Shown one piece after another: positions 11,744 through 19,633 of a stretch of 36,121 nt of DNA. The notes beneath the pieces are model-generated. The model was not told the DNA's origin and did no database searches. It was given only the letters and a program-made list of their open reading frames with translations. The stretch comes from Acrocarpospora macrocephala (GTDB lineage Bacteria > Actinomycetota > Actinomycetes > Streptosporangiales > Streptosporangiaceae): NCBI RefSeq assembly GCF_009687865.1, contig NZ_BLAE01000070.1, positions 1-36,121 of the forward strand, read 5' to 3'. The position numbers and the translations under genes were made by a program. Every line of letters begins with the position of its first letter. The stretch's first letter is position 1.

Positions 11744-12394
11744 GAGTTACCTCCCAGTCGAATCGAGGGACTCTTCACCATAGGCACATAAATGGGCTTA
11801 TCTCATTATTTCTGGCACAAAAATGGCGGGGTATTTATTTCCTTTACGGCGAAATGACTGTTCATCGAGTGCCATTAGGTATTTCGCGGTGTACGAATCG
11901 TTCGGGGGAAATGGGGAGTTCAGGGCGTTGCTGCTCATGTAACGACAGCCCTGGTGGATCGATCCAGCCTCTCTGGAACGTTGCGTCTCGTGATCATGTT
12001 GCCCTTGGCCGGCGCGATCTCCGGTCCGGTGGTCTGGAAGTTTCCTAGGTGCCGGACCCTCGTGATCATGTTGCCTTTGGCCAACGCAATCGCCGGTCCG
12101 CTGGTCTTTCCTGGGTGCCGGACCCGGCTGCCAAGCCGGGCGCGGTTCCCCAGTTTCCGCTGGGTGGCTTGATTCTCGGCCTGCGGGCGCGATCGGCGGG
12201 TCGCCCTGGCTGGTCAAGGCTCCAGCCGAATGCGGCGATATCCTCCGATCTGGCCAAGTCGCGGACGATCGGGGCGGTCCCCGAGCCAGAGCAGGGCGAT
12301 CAGTGTGGTGGCCTGATCACGCCCAGCTCAGCTCGGCATTGGCTGACATCCCCGCTGATCTCGGGCTTGCCGTCCATGGTGGTCCAGGAGGGAA
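11744..12394. other. 651-bp intergenic region with AT-rich segment and tandem repeat
   Basis: No convincing gene. 11765-11900 is clearly AT-richer than its surroundings (runs such as TTATTTCTGG and GGTATTTATTTCC) and probably holds the promoter of the DUF7144 gene. 11987-12128 holds a 72-bp tandem repeat (listed separately). A minus-strand open frame over 11798-12217 is repeat-derived, has no SD and reads as low-complexity, so I do not call it. The rest shows no structure I can name. Confidence 0.55.
11987..12128 (+). repeat. 72-bp tandem repeat, two copies
   Basis: CTCGTGATCATGTTGCC starts at 11987 and again at 12059. The copies stay alignable through ATC.CCGGTCCG.TGGTCT and GGTGCCGGACC. 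Each contains the palindrome TGATCA. A degraded partial copy (TCTGGAACGTT) precedes the first. Noncoding as far as I can see; function unknown. Confidence 0.75.
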
Positions 12395-13000
12395 ATGACG
12401 GGAACGCTTCGACGAGTTAACGTCAGAAGGGTGAGCATCGATATCAGAGACGCCTACCGGCGGGCCCTCGATGCCTTCGGTCAGCGCGTCCACCTTATTA
12501 AGGCCGACCAGTGGGAGGTCATCACGCCGTGCGTGGACTGGAATGTCCGCGCGCTGGTCAACCATCTCGTGAACGAGAGCCTGTGGGCGCCTGAGCTGCT
12601 CGCGGGCCGTACTGTCGGGGAGGTCGGCGACGTCTTCGACGGCGACCTGCTGGGCGATGATCCGATCAAGGCGTTCGACACGGCCGCGCACGAGGCCGTG
12701 CAGGCGTCCGCCTCGGCGGGCGCGCTGACCCGGGTCGTGCACCTGTCGTTCGGGGACGTGCCGGGCGAGGAGTACATCACCGAGCTGTTCGCGGACGCGC
12801 TCATCCACACCTGGGACCTGTCCCAGGCGATCGGCGTCGTCGACCGGCTCGATCCGGAACTGGTCGACGCCTGCGCGACATGGTTCGCGGGTGCGGAGGA
12901 GGCCTACCGGCAGTCAGGCGTTATAGGAGAACACGCCGAGGTACCCGCCGAGGCCGACCCCCAGACCCGTTTACTGGCCGCATGGGGCCGCCGCGCTTAG
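12395..13000 (+). CDS. TIGR03086-type metal-binding / maleylpyruvate isomerase N-terminal family protein
   Basis: A 201-aa four-helix-bundle protein of the DinB / mycothiol-dependent maleylpyruvate isomerase N-terminal superfamily. Signs are VSIDIRDAYRRALDAFGQRV at the start, then TPCVDWNVRALVNHLVNE (helix with the first metal His), and EEYITELFADALIHTWDLSQAIG (second metal cluster). The length fits TIGR03086. These proteins use a divalent metal and often mycothiol, but individual substrates are mostly unknown. ATG 12395 has AGGAGG 3 bases away; GTG 12431 would start exactly at the family's conserved N-terminus but has its SD immediately adjacent. The start is therefore uncertain by 12 codons. 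It is convergent with the bL37 gene. Confidence 0.85.
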   Translation: MTGTLRRVNVRRVSIDIRDAYRRALDAFGQRVHLIKADQWEVITPCVDWNVRALVNHLVNESLWAPELLAGRTVGEVGDVFDGDLLGDDPIKAFDTAAHEAVQASASAGALTRVVHLSFGDVPGEEYITELFADALIHTWDLSQAIGVVDRLDPELVDACATWFAGAEEAYRQSGVIGEHAEVPAEADPQTRLLAAWGRRA

Positions 13001-13050
13001 GAGCGCCTAACAGTCCGAGCCGCGTTCGTGCGCTTGTGGCCGCTTGGGCG

Positions 13051-13128
13051 TCAGCGGCCGGTGGGGCGCTTGCCGTGGTTGGCCTTCTTCTTCTTGCGTG
13101 CCTTCGACTTGCGCTGGCGCTTACCCAT
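13051..13128 (-). CDS. 50S ribosomal protein bL37 (25 aa)
   Basis: A 25-codon, extremely basic ORF: MGKRQRKSKARKKKK followed by ANHGKRPTGR. The ANHGKRP signature and size match bL37, the tiny actinobacterial 50S protein described in mycobacterial ribosome structures (family identification from memory). AAGGA lies 7-8 bases upstream of the ATG. It is divergent from the deoR-type gene, with 138 bp between starts, and convergent with the DinB-like gene. It is too short for ordinary gene callers and easily missed. Confidence 0.8.
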   Translation of the reverse strand: MGKRQRKSKARKKKKANHGKRPTGR

Positions 13129-13215
13129 GGGTGAGTCCTTTCGCTCGTCGTGACATATGACGACACTCTCCTCCGGAGGACGTACCCCGACAAGACCCCA
13201 TGCCTGTCATCATGA

Positions 13216-13256
13216 TTCAACATTGGATGTGCCATAATTTGTTGAAATCTGTTGAT
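13216..13256 (+). promoter_or_regulatory. Candidate DeoR operator
   Basis: TTCAACA (13216-13222) is inverted to TGTTGAA (13240-13246), and a further TGTTGAT lies exactly 10 bases on (13250-13256), just before the SD of the DeoR gene. Repeated TGTTGA words at helical spacing in front of a DeoR-family gene suggest an autoregulatory operator. The assignment is inferred. Confidence 0.5.
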
Positions 13257-13266
13257 AGGAGGGGTG

Positions 13267-14073
13267 ATGCTGGCGCAGCAACGGCAGCAGGCGATCCTCG
13301 AACGGGTTCGCCGGACCGGTGGCGTGCGGGTCGCCGACCTGGTCCGCGACCTCGGGGTCTCCGACATGACGATCCGGCGTGACCTGGAGGTCCTGGCCGA
13401 ACGTGGCCTGCTGGAGAAGGTGCACGGCGGCGCCACCGTCGCCGGTCCCGGCTCCACCGAAGAGCCCGGCTTCGCCGCCAAGTCGGTACGGCAACAGCAG
13501 GAGAAGGAGGCCATCGCCCGGCACGCGGCCCACCTGATCCGCCCCGGCAGCTCGGTCGCCCTCTCCGCCGGGACCACCACCTGGACGTTCGCCCACCACC
13601 TGGTCGACGTGCCCGAACTGACCGTGATCACCAACTCCCTCCAGGTCGCCGACGTCTTCCACCGCGCCGGCCGCCCCGACCAGACGATCATTCTGGTCGG
13701 CGGGGTACGGACTCCGTCCGACGCCCTCGTCGGCCCGGTCGCCGTGGCCGCCATCCGCTCCCTCAACGTGGACGTGCTGGTCCTGGGCGTACACGGGATG
13801 AGCCTGCGGGCCGGATTCACCACCCCGAACCTGCTGGAGGCCGAGACCGACCGCGAACTCGTGGCCGCCGCCCAGCAACTGGTCGTCCTCGCCGACCACA
13901 CCAAATGGGGCACGATCGGCATCAGCAGCATCGCCCGCCTGGACCAGGCCCACGTCGTGGTCACCGACACCGGCCTCCCCGAACCGGCCAGAGCCGAACT
14001 GGCCGACCAGGTCGGCGAACTCATCGTCGCGGGAAGCGCCCAGAACGAGGTCACCCAGAAGGAGGCGCTGTGA
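13267..14073 (+). CDS. DeoR/GlpR family transcriptional regulator
   Basis: A 268-aa sugar-responsive regulator. The N-terminal DeoR helix-turn-helix is clear: QQAILERVRRTGGVRVADLVRDLGVSDMTIRRDLEVLAERGLLEKVHGGA (about 6-55). The C-terminal part is the DeoRC sugar-phosphate-binding domain with SVALSAGTTTWTFAHHL, TVITNSLQVADV, ILVGGVRTPSDALVGP and VLADHTKWG. ATG 13267 is preceded by AGGAGG. Its stop overlaps, as GTGA, the first of two small leader ORFs that lead into galT, so it is the first gene of a galactose operon and very likely controls it. A candidate operator lies just upstream. Confidence 0.9.
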   Translation: MLAQQRQQAILERVRRTGGVRVADLVRDLGVSDMTIRRDLEVLAERGLLEKVHGGATVAGPGSTEEPGFAAKSVRQQQEKEAIARHAAHLIRPGSSVALSAGTTTWTFAHHLVDVPELTVITNSLQVADVFHRAGRPDQTIILVGGVRTPSDALVGPVAVAAIRSLNVDVLVLGVHGMSLRAGFTTPNLLEAETDRELVAAAQQLVVLADHTKWGTIGISSIARLDQAHVVVTDTGLPEPARAELADQVGELIVAGSAQNEVTQKEAL

Positions 14074-14240
14074 AGAAGACCGCACTCCATGTCACCTCAG
14101 GGCGAAACCTCCTGGGAGAGGGTGCCGTGAAGAAGATCATCACCCCTCTCGGCACAGCACAAAACCTCCCAAAGAGCGCCGCGAACAAGACCATCAACCA
14201 CCTCGCCTCAGGACGAGTCCTCCTGAGAGAGGTGCCATGA
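14070..14240 (+). CDS. Leader ORF A: three galT-start-like repeats (56 aa)
   Basis: A GTG-initiated 56-codon frame linked to the deoR stop by GTGA, with AAGGAGG 4 bases before the GTG. It consists of three successive units resembling the galT N-terminus: VKKTALHVTSGRNLL, VKKIITPLGTAQNLP and ANKTINHLASGRVLL. It ends in a stop that overlaps the next start (ATGA at 14237). The frame and couplings look designed for translation, but the product is a repeat peptide with no known function. It could be a coupling leader or simply duplication debris that remained in frame. Confidence 0.55.
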   Translation: MKKTALHVTSGRNLLGEGAVKKIITPLGTAQNLPKSAANKTINHLASGRVLLREVP

Positions 14241-14350
14241 AGAAGCCCATCGTCCCTCTCGCCGCAGCACAGAACCTCCCAAAGGCCGCCGCGAAGAAGA
14301 CCGTCAACCACCTCGCCTCAGGACGAGTCCTTCTAAGAGAGGCGTCGTGA
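14237..14350 (+). CDS. Leader ORF B: two galT-start-like repeats (37 aa)
   Basis: An ATG-initiated 37-codon frame overlapping the stop of leader A (ATGA) and ending in a stop that overlaps the galT GTG (GTGA at 14347). GAGAGG lies 4 bases before the ATG. It encodes MKKPIVPLAAAQNLP and AKKTVNHLASGRVLLREAS, again copies of the galT N-terminus. With both overlaps intact, ribosomes could pass from deoR through A and B into galT. Function unknown; it may be a non-functional duplicate. Confidence 0.5.
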   Translation: MKKPIVPLAAAQNLPKAAAKKTVNHLASGRVLLREAS

Positions 14351-15408
14351 AGAAGACCCTCATCCATCTCGCCGACGGTCGGGAGTTGTTCTATTTTGAC
14401 CGTTCCGATGCTGCTGATCGGAGCGCTCCAGATGAACGTGATCTTCCCCCGCGTCCGCTCCCGTCGGAGATGCGTTATGACCCGTTGATGGATGAATGGG
14501 TGACCATCGCCCGCCACCGGCAGACCCGCACGCACCTCCCCGCCGCCGAGGAATGCCCGCTCTGTCCCGCCCACCCTGGTTCGGAGGTTCCGTCTTGGTA
14601 TGACGTGGCCGTCTTTGAGAACCGTTTTCCCTCGTTCAGCTTCGGTGCCCACGACTACGAGCCGGTTGGCGGTCTCAGTGAGGTCCGGCCGGGCCTGGGC
14701 CGCTGTGAGGTCGTCTGCTTCACCCCCGACCACCAGGCGTCCTTCGCGTCGCTCTCCCCCGACCAGGTCGAGTTGGTGATGGAGGCCTGGGTGGACCGTA
14801 CCGCGGAGTTGTCGGCGTTGCCGGGCGTCGAGCAGGTGTTCTGCTTCGAGAACCGGGGTGCGGAGATCGGGATCACGCTGCCGCATCCGCATGGGCAGAT
14901 CTACGGGTATCCGTACGTGACGCCGCGGACGCGGCAGATGCTGGACAGCGCGGAGCGATATCGGGGCAATCTGTTCGCCGACGTGCTGGCCGCCGAACGC
15001 GCGGGGCCCCGGGTGATCGCCGCCAACGCGTACTGGACCGCGTTCGTGCCGGCCGCCGCGCGGTACCCATTCGAGGTGCATCTCTATCCGCATCGTCAGG
15101 TGCCCGATCTGCCCGCGCTGGACCCGGCGGAGCGCGCGGCGTTCGGTCCGGTGTACACCGATGTGCTGCGGCGCCTGGACGGGCTGTTCGGCGTCACGAT
15201 GCCGTACGTGGCGGCTTGGCATCAGGCGCCGGTGTCGGAGCGGCGCGAGCTGGCCTACCTGCACCTGCAGCTGTTCAGCATCCGGCGGGCCCCCGGCAAG
15301 CTGAAGTATCTGGCAGGATCGGAGTCCGCGATGGGGGCCTTCGTCAACGACATCCGCCCCGAGGAGGCCGCCGACATGCTCCGAGATCAGGAAAGCCAGC
15401 CAGACTGA
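14347..15408 (+). CDS. galT: Galactose-1-phosphate uridylyltransferase
   Basis: A 353-aa Leloir-pathway enzyme that swaps UMP between UDP-glucose and galactose-1-phosphate, in the cytosol. The HIT-superfamily active site HPHGQ is at about 180-184, with the nucleophilic second His. A zinc site is suggested by CPLC (C70, C73) with a later His. Other family landmarks are RYDPLMDEWVTIARHRQ, FENRFPSFS and FEVHLYPHRQVPDL. GTG 14347 has AGAGAGG 4 bases upstream and overlaps the stop of leader ORF B. No galK or galE follows; the upstream DeoR-type gene is the likely regulator. The N-terminal 18 codons are the template of the upstream repeat array. Confidence 0.95.
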   Translation: MKKTLIHLADGRELFYFDRSDAADRSAPDERDLPPRPLPSEMRYDPLMDEWVTIARHRQTRTHLPAAEECPLCPAHPGSEVPSWYDVAVFENRFPSFSFGAHDYEPVGGLSEVRPGLGRCEVVCFTPDHQASFASLSPDQVELVMEAWVDRTAELSALPGVEQVFCFENRGAEIGITLPHPHGQIYGYPYVTPRTRQMLDSAERYRGNLFADVLAAERAGPRVIAANAYWTAFVPAAARYPFEVHLYPHRQVPDLPALDPAERAAFGPVYTDVLRRLDGLFGVTMPYVAAWHQAPVSERRELAYLHLQLFSIRRAPGKLKYLAGSESAMGAFVNDIRPEEAADMLRDQESQPD

Positions 15409-15511
15409 TTACGGATTGATCTCTAATAGGTCGCGACTTTAGGTGGCATGACCATCCCATTGCCATTACTATCCACTGCAACCGGCCGATTCACCCGGGT
15501 CTCACGTGAGA

Positions 15512-15650
15512 TCACATGTCTCGTCCGGTACGCCTAATCCCGAGTGCCTCACTCGGGAACCGGGGACCCAAGGTACCTGGGGTGAACGCGCGCGAGCGCC
15601 AGGGCTATCTCCTGCCCGAACCCGTCAGCTAACCCGGTCGGCAGATGGAG
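15512..15650 (+). ncRNA. ydaO/yuaA-type cyclic di-AMP riboswitch
   Basis: The conserved words of the ydaO class appear in order: GGTACGCCTAATCC, a P-stem with GAACCGGGGACCCA, CCTGGGGTGAA, AGGGCTATC, then CCGAACCCGTCAGCTAACC and a closing GGTCGGCAG just before the SD of the next gene. Several short complementary arms (for example CCGAGTG with CACTCGG at 15540-15555) support the fold. In Streptomyces this riboswitch senses c-di-AMP and controls cell-wall hydrolases such as RpfA. Here it precedes a secreted wall-associated protein, consistent with that role. Boundaries are approximate. Confidence 0.88.
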
Positions 15651-15655
15651 AGGAG
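15647..15655 (+). promoter_or_regulatory. Strong SD six bases before a CTG codon
   Basis: GGAGAGGAG sits directly after the riboswitch. With a 6-base spacer the codon in the initiating position is CTG (15662). No ATG, GTG or TTG in the reading frame lies at a workable distance. Confidence 0.6.
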
Positions 15656-15661
15656 TGGGCG

Positions 15662-16606
15662 CTGCCCCCCACGTTCCGCCACCATGCCCTCGTGTCGGTC
15701 GGCGTACTCGCGGCCGCCCTGGTCTTGGGACCTGTCGCCACCGCGGCCCCCAAGCCCACCGAGGGTGAGCTGAAGAAGCAGCTCACCAGCCTGGAGAAGA
15801 AGGTCGACGGGCTGATCGCCAAGTACCACGTCGCGCGTGAGGATCTCGCGAAGGCGCGGACCGCGGAGAAAGCGGCCCGCGCGCGGCTGGTCAAGGCCGA
15901 GGCGGACTACGTGGCGGCCCAGCACGAGGTGGGCAAACTCGCCGGGCTGAACTACCAGGCCACCGTCGACCCTCGCATGCTGATGCCCGGCATGCAGCTC
16001 TCCCCGCTGGCCGCGCAACTCCAGGCCGAGAAGGCCGCCAAGATGACGGAGTTCGCGAAGAAGGAGAAGGAGCGCCGCGACGCCGCGGCCGCCGCCAAGA
16101 AGCTCATCGTGGACATCAAGCAGCAGAGCGAGGACATCGAACGCCAGCGCAAGGACGCCGAACAGCTCATCGACGAGATCCAGGAGAAACTCAACGATCT
16201 CATCCCGATGGGCCCCGGCAAGCTGGCCAACGGCGGCTGGGCGCCGGAACTGCCCACCGGCAGCGACAACATCACCCCGCGCACCCGGCTGATGCGCGAG
16301 GAGATCAAGGACGCGTTCAAGCTGCACTACACCGTCGGCTGCTTCCGCGTCGACAACATGGGCGAGCACCCGCTCGGCCGGGCCTGCGACTTCATGATGA
16401 GCTCAGGCGGCGCGATGCCCACCGCCGCCAACGCCGCCCTCGGCGACAAGATCGCTGATTGGGCCCTGAAGAACCGCACCAAACTAGGCGTCAAGTATGT
16501 GATCTGGAAACAGCGCATCAACCATGGCTCCGGCTGGCGCCTGATGGGCAACCGCGGCGGCATCACCGCCAACCACTACGACCACGTACACATCTCGATG
16601 TTCTAG
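15662..16606 (+). CDS. Secreted coiled-coil protein with ARB_07466-like C-terminal domain
   Basis: About 314 aa from the proposed CTG start. The N-terminus is a signal peptide: short basic region (TFRHH), hydrophobic core VSVGVLAAALVLGP, then ATAA before the mature PKPTEGEL. Next is a long coiled coil rich in Lys/Glu/Ala (about 35-190), like the N-terminal part of RipA/NlpC-type hydrolases. The C-terminal ~100 residues (VGCFRVD, HPLGRACDFM, LGVKYVIWKQRI, NRGGITANHYDHVHISMF) match the ARB_07466-like domain with conserved His/Asp, possibly a metal-dependent peptidoglycan peptidase. The frame is open to GTG 15506, but that lies inside the riboswitch. GTG 15692 is the other candidate; it has no SD and loses the basic part of the signal peptide. 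Confidence 0.85.
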   Translation: MPPTFRHHALVSVGVLAAALVLGPVATAAPKPTEGELKKQLTSLEKKVDGLIAKYHVAREDLAKARTAEKAARARLVKAEADYVAAQHEVGKLAGLNYQATVDPRMLMPGMQLSPLAAQLQAEKAAKMTEFAKKEKERRDAAAAAKKLIVDIKQQSEDIERQRKDAEQLIDEIQEKLNDLIPMGPGKLANGGWAPELPTGSDNITPRTRLMREEIKDAFKLHYTVGCFRVDNMGEHPLGRACDFMMSSGGAMPTAANAALGDKIADWALKNRTKLGVKYVIWKQRINHGSGWRLMGNRGGITANHYDHVHISMF

Positions 16607-16706
16607 CACCACCACAAGCCAACTGCCCCACCCACCGATCACGCGGGTGTGCGCGTCCAGCCCCCGCGGCCGCACACCCGCGTGATTGTTTTGTGCGCCT
16701 ATGGCC

Positions 16707-16804
16707 GAGCTGTGCTTATGGCCGATCCTCCGGCCCGGCGAGCTGTGCTTATGGCTGCGCCTTCGGCCCGGCGAGCTGCGCTTATGGCTGCGCCTCCGGC
16801 ACCC
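16707..16804 (+). repeat. 33-bp tandem repeat, three copies
   Basis: GAGCTGTGCTTATGGC recurs at 16707, 16740 and (as GAGCTGCGCTTATGGC) 16773, each followed by a CTCCGGCCCGGC-like tail. The 33-bp period equals 11 codons, so frames read as ELCLWLRLRPG-like peptides; nothing else suggests translation. A partial copy (GTGCGCCTATGGCC) precedes it. Confidence 0.8.
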
Positions 16805-18130: not shown

Positions 18131-18371
18131 ACCAGCCACCAAGCCGGACCACATTGACGACGTCGGCGGAGATCAGCCGCTGAGGCCGATGAGGTCGACA
18201 ACCTGGCCGAAGACCAGCCGCTGACGGACCACATTGACGACGTCGGCGGAGATCAGCCGCTGAGGCCGATGAGGTTGACGACGTCGCCGAAGACCAGCCG
18301 CTGGCGGACCGCATTGACGGCGTCGGGGAGATCAGCCGCTGAGGCGGATGGGGTTGACGATGTCGGCGAAG
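18131..18371 (-). repeat. ~80-bp tandem repeat made of the protease gene's 3' end
   Basis: ACCAGCC-type boundaries occur at 18131, 18213, 18293 and (diverged, ATTAGC) 18372, giving periods of 82, 80 and 79. Each unit contains GATCAGCCGCTGAGG, the complement of the last codons and stop (LSG-stop) of the site-2 protease, and a GACGACGTCG segment corresponding to its IFADIVNP codons. The unit nearest the gene holds the real 3' end (18332-18371). Confidence 0.85.
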
Positions 18372-19633
18372 ATTAGCAAGCCGCCCATGAAGAGGAGGAC
18401 GAGGGCCATCGCGTAGGTGAGTGGGAGGAGTTTGGCCACGTCGACGTAGCCGGGGGTGGGGCGGCGGGTGATGCGGGCCCAGGCGCGTTTGAGTCCTTCC
18501 CACAGGCCGCCCGCGATGTGGCCGCCGTCGAGGGGAAGCAGCGGGATCAGGTTGAACATGCCGACGGCCAGGTTGAGGCCAGCCAGCAGGTTGATAAAGA
18601 TGATGATCTTGCTTTCCAGCGGCGCGGAGGAAGCCGCGATCTCACCGCCGATGCGGCCCGCGCCGACGACGCCGATCGGGCCGTTGGGGTCGCGCTTCTC
18701 GCCGGAGAAGGCGGCATTCCAGACACCGACCATCTTGTGGGGGATGTTTACCATCGCGGCGGCGGTCCTGCTGGTCATCTCCCACATCTCGGAGATCACG
18801 TAGCCGGGACCCTGCCGTTCCATCACCTGCGTCGGCTCGACCCCGAGGAAACCGACCTTCACAAGTTTGTCGGGGTCGTTGAGGTCCGGCCGGTCCTGGG
18901 CGATCAGTTGGACATTGACCGGCATTTCGCGCCCGCCCCGTTCGACCACCAGGGTCGCCGGGCCTGCGCCGTGGCCACGGATCAGCTTCTGGGCGGCCTC
19001 CCAGGTGGTGACCCTGGTCCCGTCCACGGCCACGATCCGGTCTTTCGGCAGCAGGCCGGCCTTCGCGGCCGGGGCTATCGGGTCGGACGGCAGGCAGTCG
19101 CGCGTGCCCTGCTCGGCCGCCGGAATCACGCACTTGCTGACCCCAGAGAGCACCGGCTTCAGCACCACTACCCCGAAGCCCATCATGACCACCGCGAACA
19201 GCACGAACGCCAGCAGGAAGTTCATGAACGGGCCGCCGGCCATGATGATGACCTTCTGCCACCAGGGCTTGCGGTAGAAGACCCGGTTCTGGTCGCCCGG
19301 GCGGATCTCCTCCGACGCCACCGCGCGGGCGTTCTCGATCAGGCTCTGCCAGGGCCCGGTGGAGACGCTGCGCAGCTTGTTCGGGTCGTCGCTGGCCCGG
19401 GGCGGCAACATGCCGATCATCCGGATATATCCACCCAGCGGGATGTACTTCACGCCATATTCGGTCTCGCCGCGCCTGCGTGACCAGAATGTGCCACCGA
19501 AGCCGACCATGTACTGCGTCACGCGTACGCCGAAGATCTTGGCTGGGACCAGGTGGCCGATCTCGTGCAGCGCGATGGACACCATGAGTCCGACGAAGAG
19601 GAGCAAGAACCCGGCCAGATAGACCCAGCTCAT
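18332..19633 (-). CDS. Site-2 intramembrane metalloprotease (Rip1/RseP type)
   Basis: A 433-aa M50 zinc protease that cleaves membrane-bound anti-sigma factors or other substrates within the bilayer. HEIGH at residues 23-27 in the first transmembrane helix and the LDG motif (about 368-370) in a later helix form the active site. A PDZ domain lies between (about 190-270: AGLLPKDRIVAVDGTRVTTWEAAQKLI). Hydrophobic segments: 4-22, MAGGPFMNFLLAFVLFAVVMMGFGV (~131-155), the region before LDG, and a final LTYAMALVLLFMGGLLIFADIV. It matches mycobacterial Rip1, which often sits by dxr and ispG; those genes are not here. The 3' end is the seed of a tandem repeat. The ATG start has GGGGG upstream at a slightly long distance. 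Confidence 0.93.
   Translation of the reverse strand: MSWVYLAGFLLLFVGLMVSIALHEIGHLVPAKIFGVRVTQYMVGFGGTFWSRRRGETEYGVKYIPLGGYIRMIGMLPPRASDDPNKLRSVSTGPWQSLIENARAVASEEIRPGDQNRVFYRKPWWQKVIIMAGGPFMNFLLAFVLFAVVMMGFGVVVLKPVLSGVSKCVIPAAEQGTRDCLPSDPIAPAAKAGLLPKDRIVAVDGTRVTTWEAAQKLIRGHGAGPATLVVERGGREMPVNVQLIAQDRPDLNDPDKLVKVGFLGVEPTQVMERQGPGYVISEMWEMTSRTAAAMVNIPHKMVGVWNAAFSGEKRDPNGPIGVVGAGRIGGEIAASSAPLESKIIIFINLLAGLNLAVGMFNLIPLLPLDGGHIAGGLWEGLKRAWARITRRPTPGYVDVAKLLPLTYAMALVLLFMGGLLIFADIVNPIRLSG

Follow-up and report, generated by a model that had tools for sequence, protein, structure and literature searches.

In a 36,121-nucleotide stretch of the Acrocarpospora macrocephala genome (contig NZ_BLAE01000070.1, positions 1 to 36,121 of the forward strand; the window hereafter), the genes for a DeoR-family regulator (deoR) and galactose-1-phosphate uridylyltransferase (galT) are separated by a tandem array of short units resembling the 5' end of galT. 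Our analysis suggests that this array is a ribosome relay, a termination-reinitiation chain formed by duplication of a 56-bp segment spanning the junction, which would preserve the coupling of deoR and galT, its leader peptides having no function; we give this reading a probability of about 0.72. Related bacteria evolved similar stepping-stone open reading frames (ORFs) at the same junction. The features discussed below are the following, SD standing for Shine-Dalgarno.

13267..14073, forward strand: deoR-family regulator gene (Pfam DeoRC and HTH_DeoR; also in the ORF list); start uncertain between 13252 and 13267; its TGA stop shares bases with the start of the first relay
14060..14065, forward strand: SD-like AGGAGG for leader ORF 1, within deoR
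14070..14126, forward strand: unit U1, 57 bp, in the same frame as U2
14127..14180, forward strand: unit U2, B-type, 54 bp
14181..14236, forward strand: unit U3, A-type, 56 bp, with SD-like AGAGAGG at 14226-14232
14237..14290, forward strand: unit U4, B-type, 54 bp, first bases ATGA
14291..14346, forward strand: unit U5, A-type, 56 bp, with SD-like AGAGAGG at 14336-14342
14070..14240, forward strand: leader ORF 1, 56 aa, three units; its GTG start and the deoR stop form GTGA, its TGA stop and the next ATG form ATGA
14237..14350, forward strand: leader ORF 2, 37 aa, two units; ATG start; its TGA stop and the galT GTG form GTGA
14347..15408, forward strand: galT, 353 aa (TIGR00209 above cut-off, Pfam GalP_UDP_transf); in congeners the start lies in the same region

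The original prediction had described tandem units ahead of galT, the last being the galT N-terminus itself, and two leader ORFs of three and two units coupled by GTGA, ATGA and GTGA overlaps. Both descriptions were borne out. Five units of 54-57 bp (14070-14346) precede galT, whose first codons repeat the cassette for the sixth time, and Tandem Repeats Finder (TRF) reported the region twice, at 14062-14373 (period 54, 5.6 copies) and at 14095-14374 (period 110, 2.5 copies, 84% matches). From deoR through ORF 1 and ORF 2 to galT, the junctions read GTGA, ATGA and GTGA, and SD-like runs stand ahead of all three working starts (AGGAGG, AGAGAGG and AGAGAGG, respectively), in agreement with the further claim that A-type units carry their own SD followed by a start (U3 and U5). 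The 3' ends of U2 and U4 have no clear SD and the next codon is GCG, not a start; these B-type units are 2 bases shorter than the 56-bp units and are read through.

The array, judging from its sequence, most likely arose when a 56-bp segment covering the stop-start overlap of deoR and galT was duplicated in tandem. Starting from an ancestral GTGA overlap, a segment made of the last ~12 nt of deoR with its SD and the first ~44 nt of galT would have been duplicated in tandem. As the length is 2 mod 3, the galT frame of one copy would meet the deoR stop in the copy after it, and a new copy would again end in a stop-start overlap, leaving a chain of micro-ORFs between deoR and galT. On finishing deoR, ribosomes would re-initiate at each overlap in turn until they reached galT, and selection would keep the linkage unbroken, the leader peptides having no function of their own. 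Leader translation, the dependence of galT on coupling and the duplication history are inferred. Most studies are described as finding the strongest coupling at spacings of -4 to +3 and a 3- to 10-fold loss once the spacing reaches about +40 nt, with coupling at longer distances reported in some (review, PMC12548453). A 277-bp gap that lacked relays should therefore couple the two genes less strongly; the relay chain would keep every step at -4.

The resemblance of the units to the local deoR end and galT start is an argument for local duplication. When the first 42 nt of galT were compared without gaps, U3, U4 and U5 had 28, 28 and 29 matching positions, respectively, the best background matches in 400 kb of the same genome being 26 and 27 on the two strands. 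The 12 nt ahead of the working array starts (GAGAGAGGTGCC and AAGAGAGGCGTC) are also similar to the deoR end with its SD (GAAGGAGGCGCT). The genus was represented by five genomes, the window's genome included, and the array was present in two of them, this one and the nearest relative (98% GalT identity), while in the three other congeners deoR and galT overlap directly by GTGA. Counting units at related junctions, as the original prediction had suggested, thus gave an array of five units in the nearest relative and a plain overlap in the three congeners. The relative's recognizable units measure 56, 45, 50, 54 and 56 bp, two of them being shortened, and since the relative carries the array too, it is unlikely to be an artefact of assembly. 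Searched at the DNA level with E up to 1, the five genomes gave the array in two and the galT start in the other three, and apart from short weak matches no further array copies. No similar tandem relays were found in 400 kb of the same genome (53 TRF rows), a result that proves little as the filter was unchecked on the known array. No clear signal of concerted evolution was obtained, with unit-pair identities of 85.5% and 77.9% within genomes and of 83.9% and 82.4% between them.

To place the array among its relatives, deoR-galT junctions were classified at 216 loci, the window included, which are part of what exists. They were drawn from the best 80 of 592 matches and from the family genomes, of which 132 out of 150 had galT and 30 loci and 40 stretches were examined. 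Once 28 duplicates, 31 loci where no deoR end could be detected, 2 where deoR lay far away or inside and 1 that lacked galT were excluded, there were 154 distinct junctions: 110 with a direct overlap, 9 with a short gap and no overlap, and 35 with inserts. By relays or by in-frame extension, deoR was connected to galT in 29 of the 35 inserts against 17.7 expected from shuffles with length jitter (P 3e-5), under a connection rule that does not count as broken the cases in which the sequence ends inside galT (L306, L313, L330 and L331). Taking one insert per genus (12 genera), 11.1 were connected against 6.4 expected (median P 0.004, 95th percentile 0.029). Of the readings offered by the original prediction, a coupling leader, which would have to be translated, is the best supported.

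The inserts differed in build. Plantactinospora mayteni has four 26-bp tandem units with a 9-aa ORF in each, and its six congeners include three direct overlaps, one in-frame extension, one single relay and one relay with an extension. Saccharopolyspora soli has relays of 74, 74 and 53 bp. Among 15 Microbispora species, seven have relays, five have broken chains, one has an extension and two were not among the listed inserts; inserts were also found in Sphaerimonospora, Micromonospora and others. Outside the Acrocarpospora pair the number of relays ranges from 1 to 4. The first and last junctions of a locus were more alike (mean 0.57) than junctions compared across genera (0.43, P 2e-6), and the likeness reached at least 0.6 in 18 of the 35 loci. 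Junction duplication appears to account for some inserts, not all. A cruder scan for repeated NTGA junctions, which returned the genus arrays along with chance-like matches and missed the Plantactinospora array, was dropped.

Between the two Acrocarpospora species, the array differs at 64 of 261 aligned positions (24.5%), plus 16 gapped bases. The identity is 97.2% for deoR, 95-97% for galT beyond its first 60 nt and 96.9% for the spacer downstream of galT, which is not neutral because it overlaps a c-di-AMP (cyclic di-AMP) riboswitch (RF00379, 84.7 bits, window 15521-15657). Four-fold sites in ten genes, which possibly understate the neutral rate in these GC-rich genomes, differ at 144 of 2039 positions (7.1%). 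In 60-base bins over 13018-16708, the top four all fall in the array (20, 10, 12 and 15 mismatches) and the two adjoining bins have 8; elsewhere in the window, as far as it could be aligned, counts of 9 or 10 occur in a few bins. The 53 leader codons compared, which come from the last leader and, 16 of them, from unit 1, show no codon-position constraint: mismatches number 14, 14 and 7 at the three positions (test for evenness, P 0.25), whereas galT has 2, 2 and 40; in the last leader, 15 codon changes were nonsynonymous and 1 was synonymous. The stop-start chain to galT is nevertheless unbroken in both species, with two relays here and three in the relative, whose first unit is 56 bp rather than 57 and is therefore closed by a stop-start overlap where the 57-bp unit is read through.

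Several results weigh against the relay reading. Arrays given 64 random substitutions were still connected in 25% of cases, so survival of the chain in the species pair is not significant by itself. The SD and start nodes were only weakly more conserved than the rest (4 mismatches in 33 positions against 60 in 228, P 0.086), and the second of the relative's four starts has a weak SD. As to origin, U1 (27 matching positions) and U2 (26) do not exceed the 400-kb background, nor do the three units of the relative tested against its own galT (25, 27 and 23), and the first and last junctions have little likeness in 17 of the 35 insert loci, so that many inserts need not be junction duplications. 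The chain is broken in 6 of the 35 inserts, one in Sphaerimonospora and five in Microbispora, although the galT-adjoining relay can still be read by eye in three of the latter (L262, L263 and L265). The shuffles used as a null consider phylogeny only in the one-per-genus test. Finally, trpB-trpA, examined as a negative control (30 loci in 29 genomes), had no arrays, with 15 direct overlaps, 14 gaps and one two-codon relay.

In the same 29 genomes, ruvA-ruvB had also been intended as a negative control, and it showed relays, which changed our reading. Inserts were found at 25 of the 29 ruvA-ruvB loci (17 connected against 11.8 expected, P 0.015), at 24 of 30 ilvB-ilvN loci in 30 genomes (22 against 14.8, P 0.001) and at 18 of 30 nuoE-nuoF loci in 30 genomes (18 against 9.1, a value reached in none of 50,000 simulations), P values that ignore phylogeny and that must be read with the uncertain starts of some nuoF and ruvB genes and with a choice of ilvBN and nuoEF genomes rich in genera with variable galT junctions (Microbispora and Plantactinospora), all of which adds to the points just listed. 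Depending on the start rule, nuoE-nuoF has 10 or 18 inserts, all of them connected under both rules; eight rows scored there as fused with no relays are perhaps direct overlaps whose start was set too far downstream, and two ruvB rows scored as fused (L237 and L238, ~1 kb) are partial matches and doubtful. Relay micro-ORFs were seen at nuoE-nuoF (L340-L369), ilvB-ilvN (L370-L399) and ruvA-ruvB (L210-L238). Five ilvB-ilvN inserts from different genera (L371, L376, L382, L385 and L393) start at the ATGA overlap with ATGAGCGAGCGNAGYGAGCGAATCA; they were found at this gene pair only (5 of 399 loci) and could be an element outside mycobacteria similar to the mycobacterial interspersed repetitive units (MIRUs). 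Micro-ORF relays seem to be a broader feature of these bacteria, with the window's array as an elaborate, repeat-built case. At somewhat less than even odds, we would go further and regard the stop-start junctions of actinobacterial operons as nurseries of micro-ORF relays, where duplications and insertions are tolerated if the path of the ribosome is rebuilt, where unconserved chains arise repeatedly (deoR-galT, ilvBN, nuoEF, ruvAB), in some cases because the junction itself was duplicated in tandem, and where the number of steps may set the ratio of the downstream protein.

That last element is close to a graded tuner, in which ribosomes would be lost at each step, the number of units would set the galT:deoR ratio and this number would vary adaptively. 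Such a tuner is compatible with the relay and is possible, though we think it unlikely: relay number does vary, between the two species, each represented by one genome, as well as among the other inserts, and in Mycobacterium tuberculosis the repeat length upstream of fpg1 is described as correlating modestly with the mRNA level (PMC2734929), while the 110 of 154 junctions that have no insert speak against it. We find it rather improbable that the array is neutral debris, with galT starting from its own SD and the leaders being untranslated by-products of duplication. The unconstrained leader codons, the broken inserts and the share of randomized arrays that remain connected are all what debris would give, and this part of the original prediction fits the peptide sequences; it fits the linkage less well, as the connectivity of inserts exceeds that of shuffles at four gene pairs.

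Two further readings were considered. The original prediction had also proposed that slippage changes the frame reaching galT, and a phase-variable device of this kind, turning galT on or off by gain or loss of units, is the least probable of the explanations considered. Its 56-bp units are indeed not multiples of three and the chain was broken in 4 of the 32 possible unit subsets, but these units bring their own stop-start overlap, and in silico galT stayed connected in the other 28 subsets (24 of 32 in the relative) and, for each of the two species, in 12 of the 15 cases in which a run of units was duplicated; after random deletions of 1-150 bp about 71% of arrays stayed connected in each. 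Functional leader peptides, or an attenuator sensing a metabolite, are hardly more credible. The excess of nonsynonymous changes in the last leader could be read as diversifying selection, yet mismatches are spread evenly over the codon positions and the peptides have no NCBIfam match. For an attenuator, no sigma-70-like promoter was found and terminator-like sites are at chance level, a single one being present in 13000-15700 (1.1 expected) and lying inside galT; the array has no Rfam match, and its folding z is only -1.74 (6 of 100 shuffles as low). The ribosome relay remains the reading we prefer.

Elsewhere in the window, an M50-protease gene (18335-19633, reverse strand) apparently has its 3' end, stop codon included, repeated downstream in 40/80-bp units (18145-18377), a second tandem duplication across a gene end. 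A 33-bp tandem array lies at 16706-16800; the alignment with the relative's contig G001:C96 stops at ~16708, close to the end of that contig. Over window positions 12003-12354, blastn at E 1e-10 gave no match between the pair of related genomes, both flanks being 96-98% identical.

If the relay reading is right, coupling chains with anything from 0 to 4 steps occur naturally at a single gene pair, deoR-galT, and would allow direct measurement of what each termination-reinitiation step costs and of how far the downstream gene depends on coupling. Some of the small ORFs that go unannotated in operon spacers may likewise carry ribosomes rather than make peptides, and the array hints at a local way in which MIRU-like structures could form outside mycobacteria.

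The statement in the original prediction that nothing in the families involved explains the array was too strong, as mycobacteria hold close precedents in MIRUs and in RTGA-coupled small ORFs. MIRUs are described as scattered repeats of 40-100 bp that carry an ORF coupled by a -4 overlap (PMC12548453, PMC2734929). They share with the array a tandem unit of similar length (54-57 bp in five units here) and a unit ORF linked to its neighbor by an NTGA overlap (GTGA, ATGA and GTGA here). They are found at many loci and are apparently mobile, whereas the array was found at one locus only in the five genus genomes and its units resemble local deoR/galT sequence, a comparison with MIRUs made from their published description. 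RTGA-coupled small ORFs, in which a TGA stop overlaps a downstream RTG start as in the array, are reported to have an architecture that is sometimes conserved and a peptide that is not (Shell et al. 2015, PMC4633059); the two Acrocarpospora species likewise kept the coupled architecture while the peptides diverged. The small ORFs analyzed in that work begin leaderless transcripts, unlike those of the array, which come after deoR, are arranged in tandem and link one gene to another. At VNTR3239/ETR-F in the M. tuberculosis complex, rnc and fpg1 are spaced apart by tandem repeats, as deoR and galT are: the genes lie 279-358 bp apart, compared with 1-54 bp in other mycobacteria, the gap is filled with 55- and 79-bp repeats and repeat length correlates with expression (PMC2734929), but the description drawn on here includes neither a stop-start relay nor a derivation of the repeats from the gene ends. 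The mechanism proposed for the array is termination-reinitiation, which is known from stop-start overlaps and is usually helped by an SD that lies within the ORF upstream (Huber et al. 2019, PMC6728339; Brown and Wade 2025, PMC12548453); the cases drawn on here are single steps between two genes, and the array would be a chain of micro-ORFs. Unlike the scattered MIRUs, this relay looks locally born.
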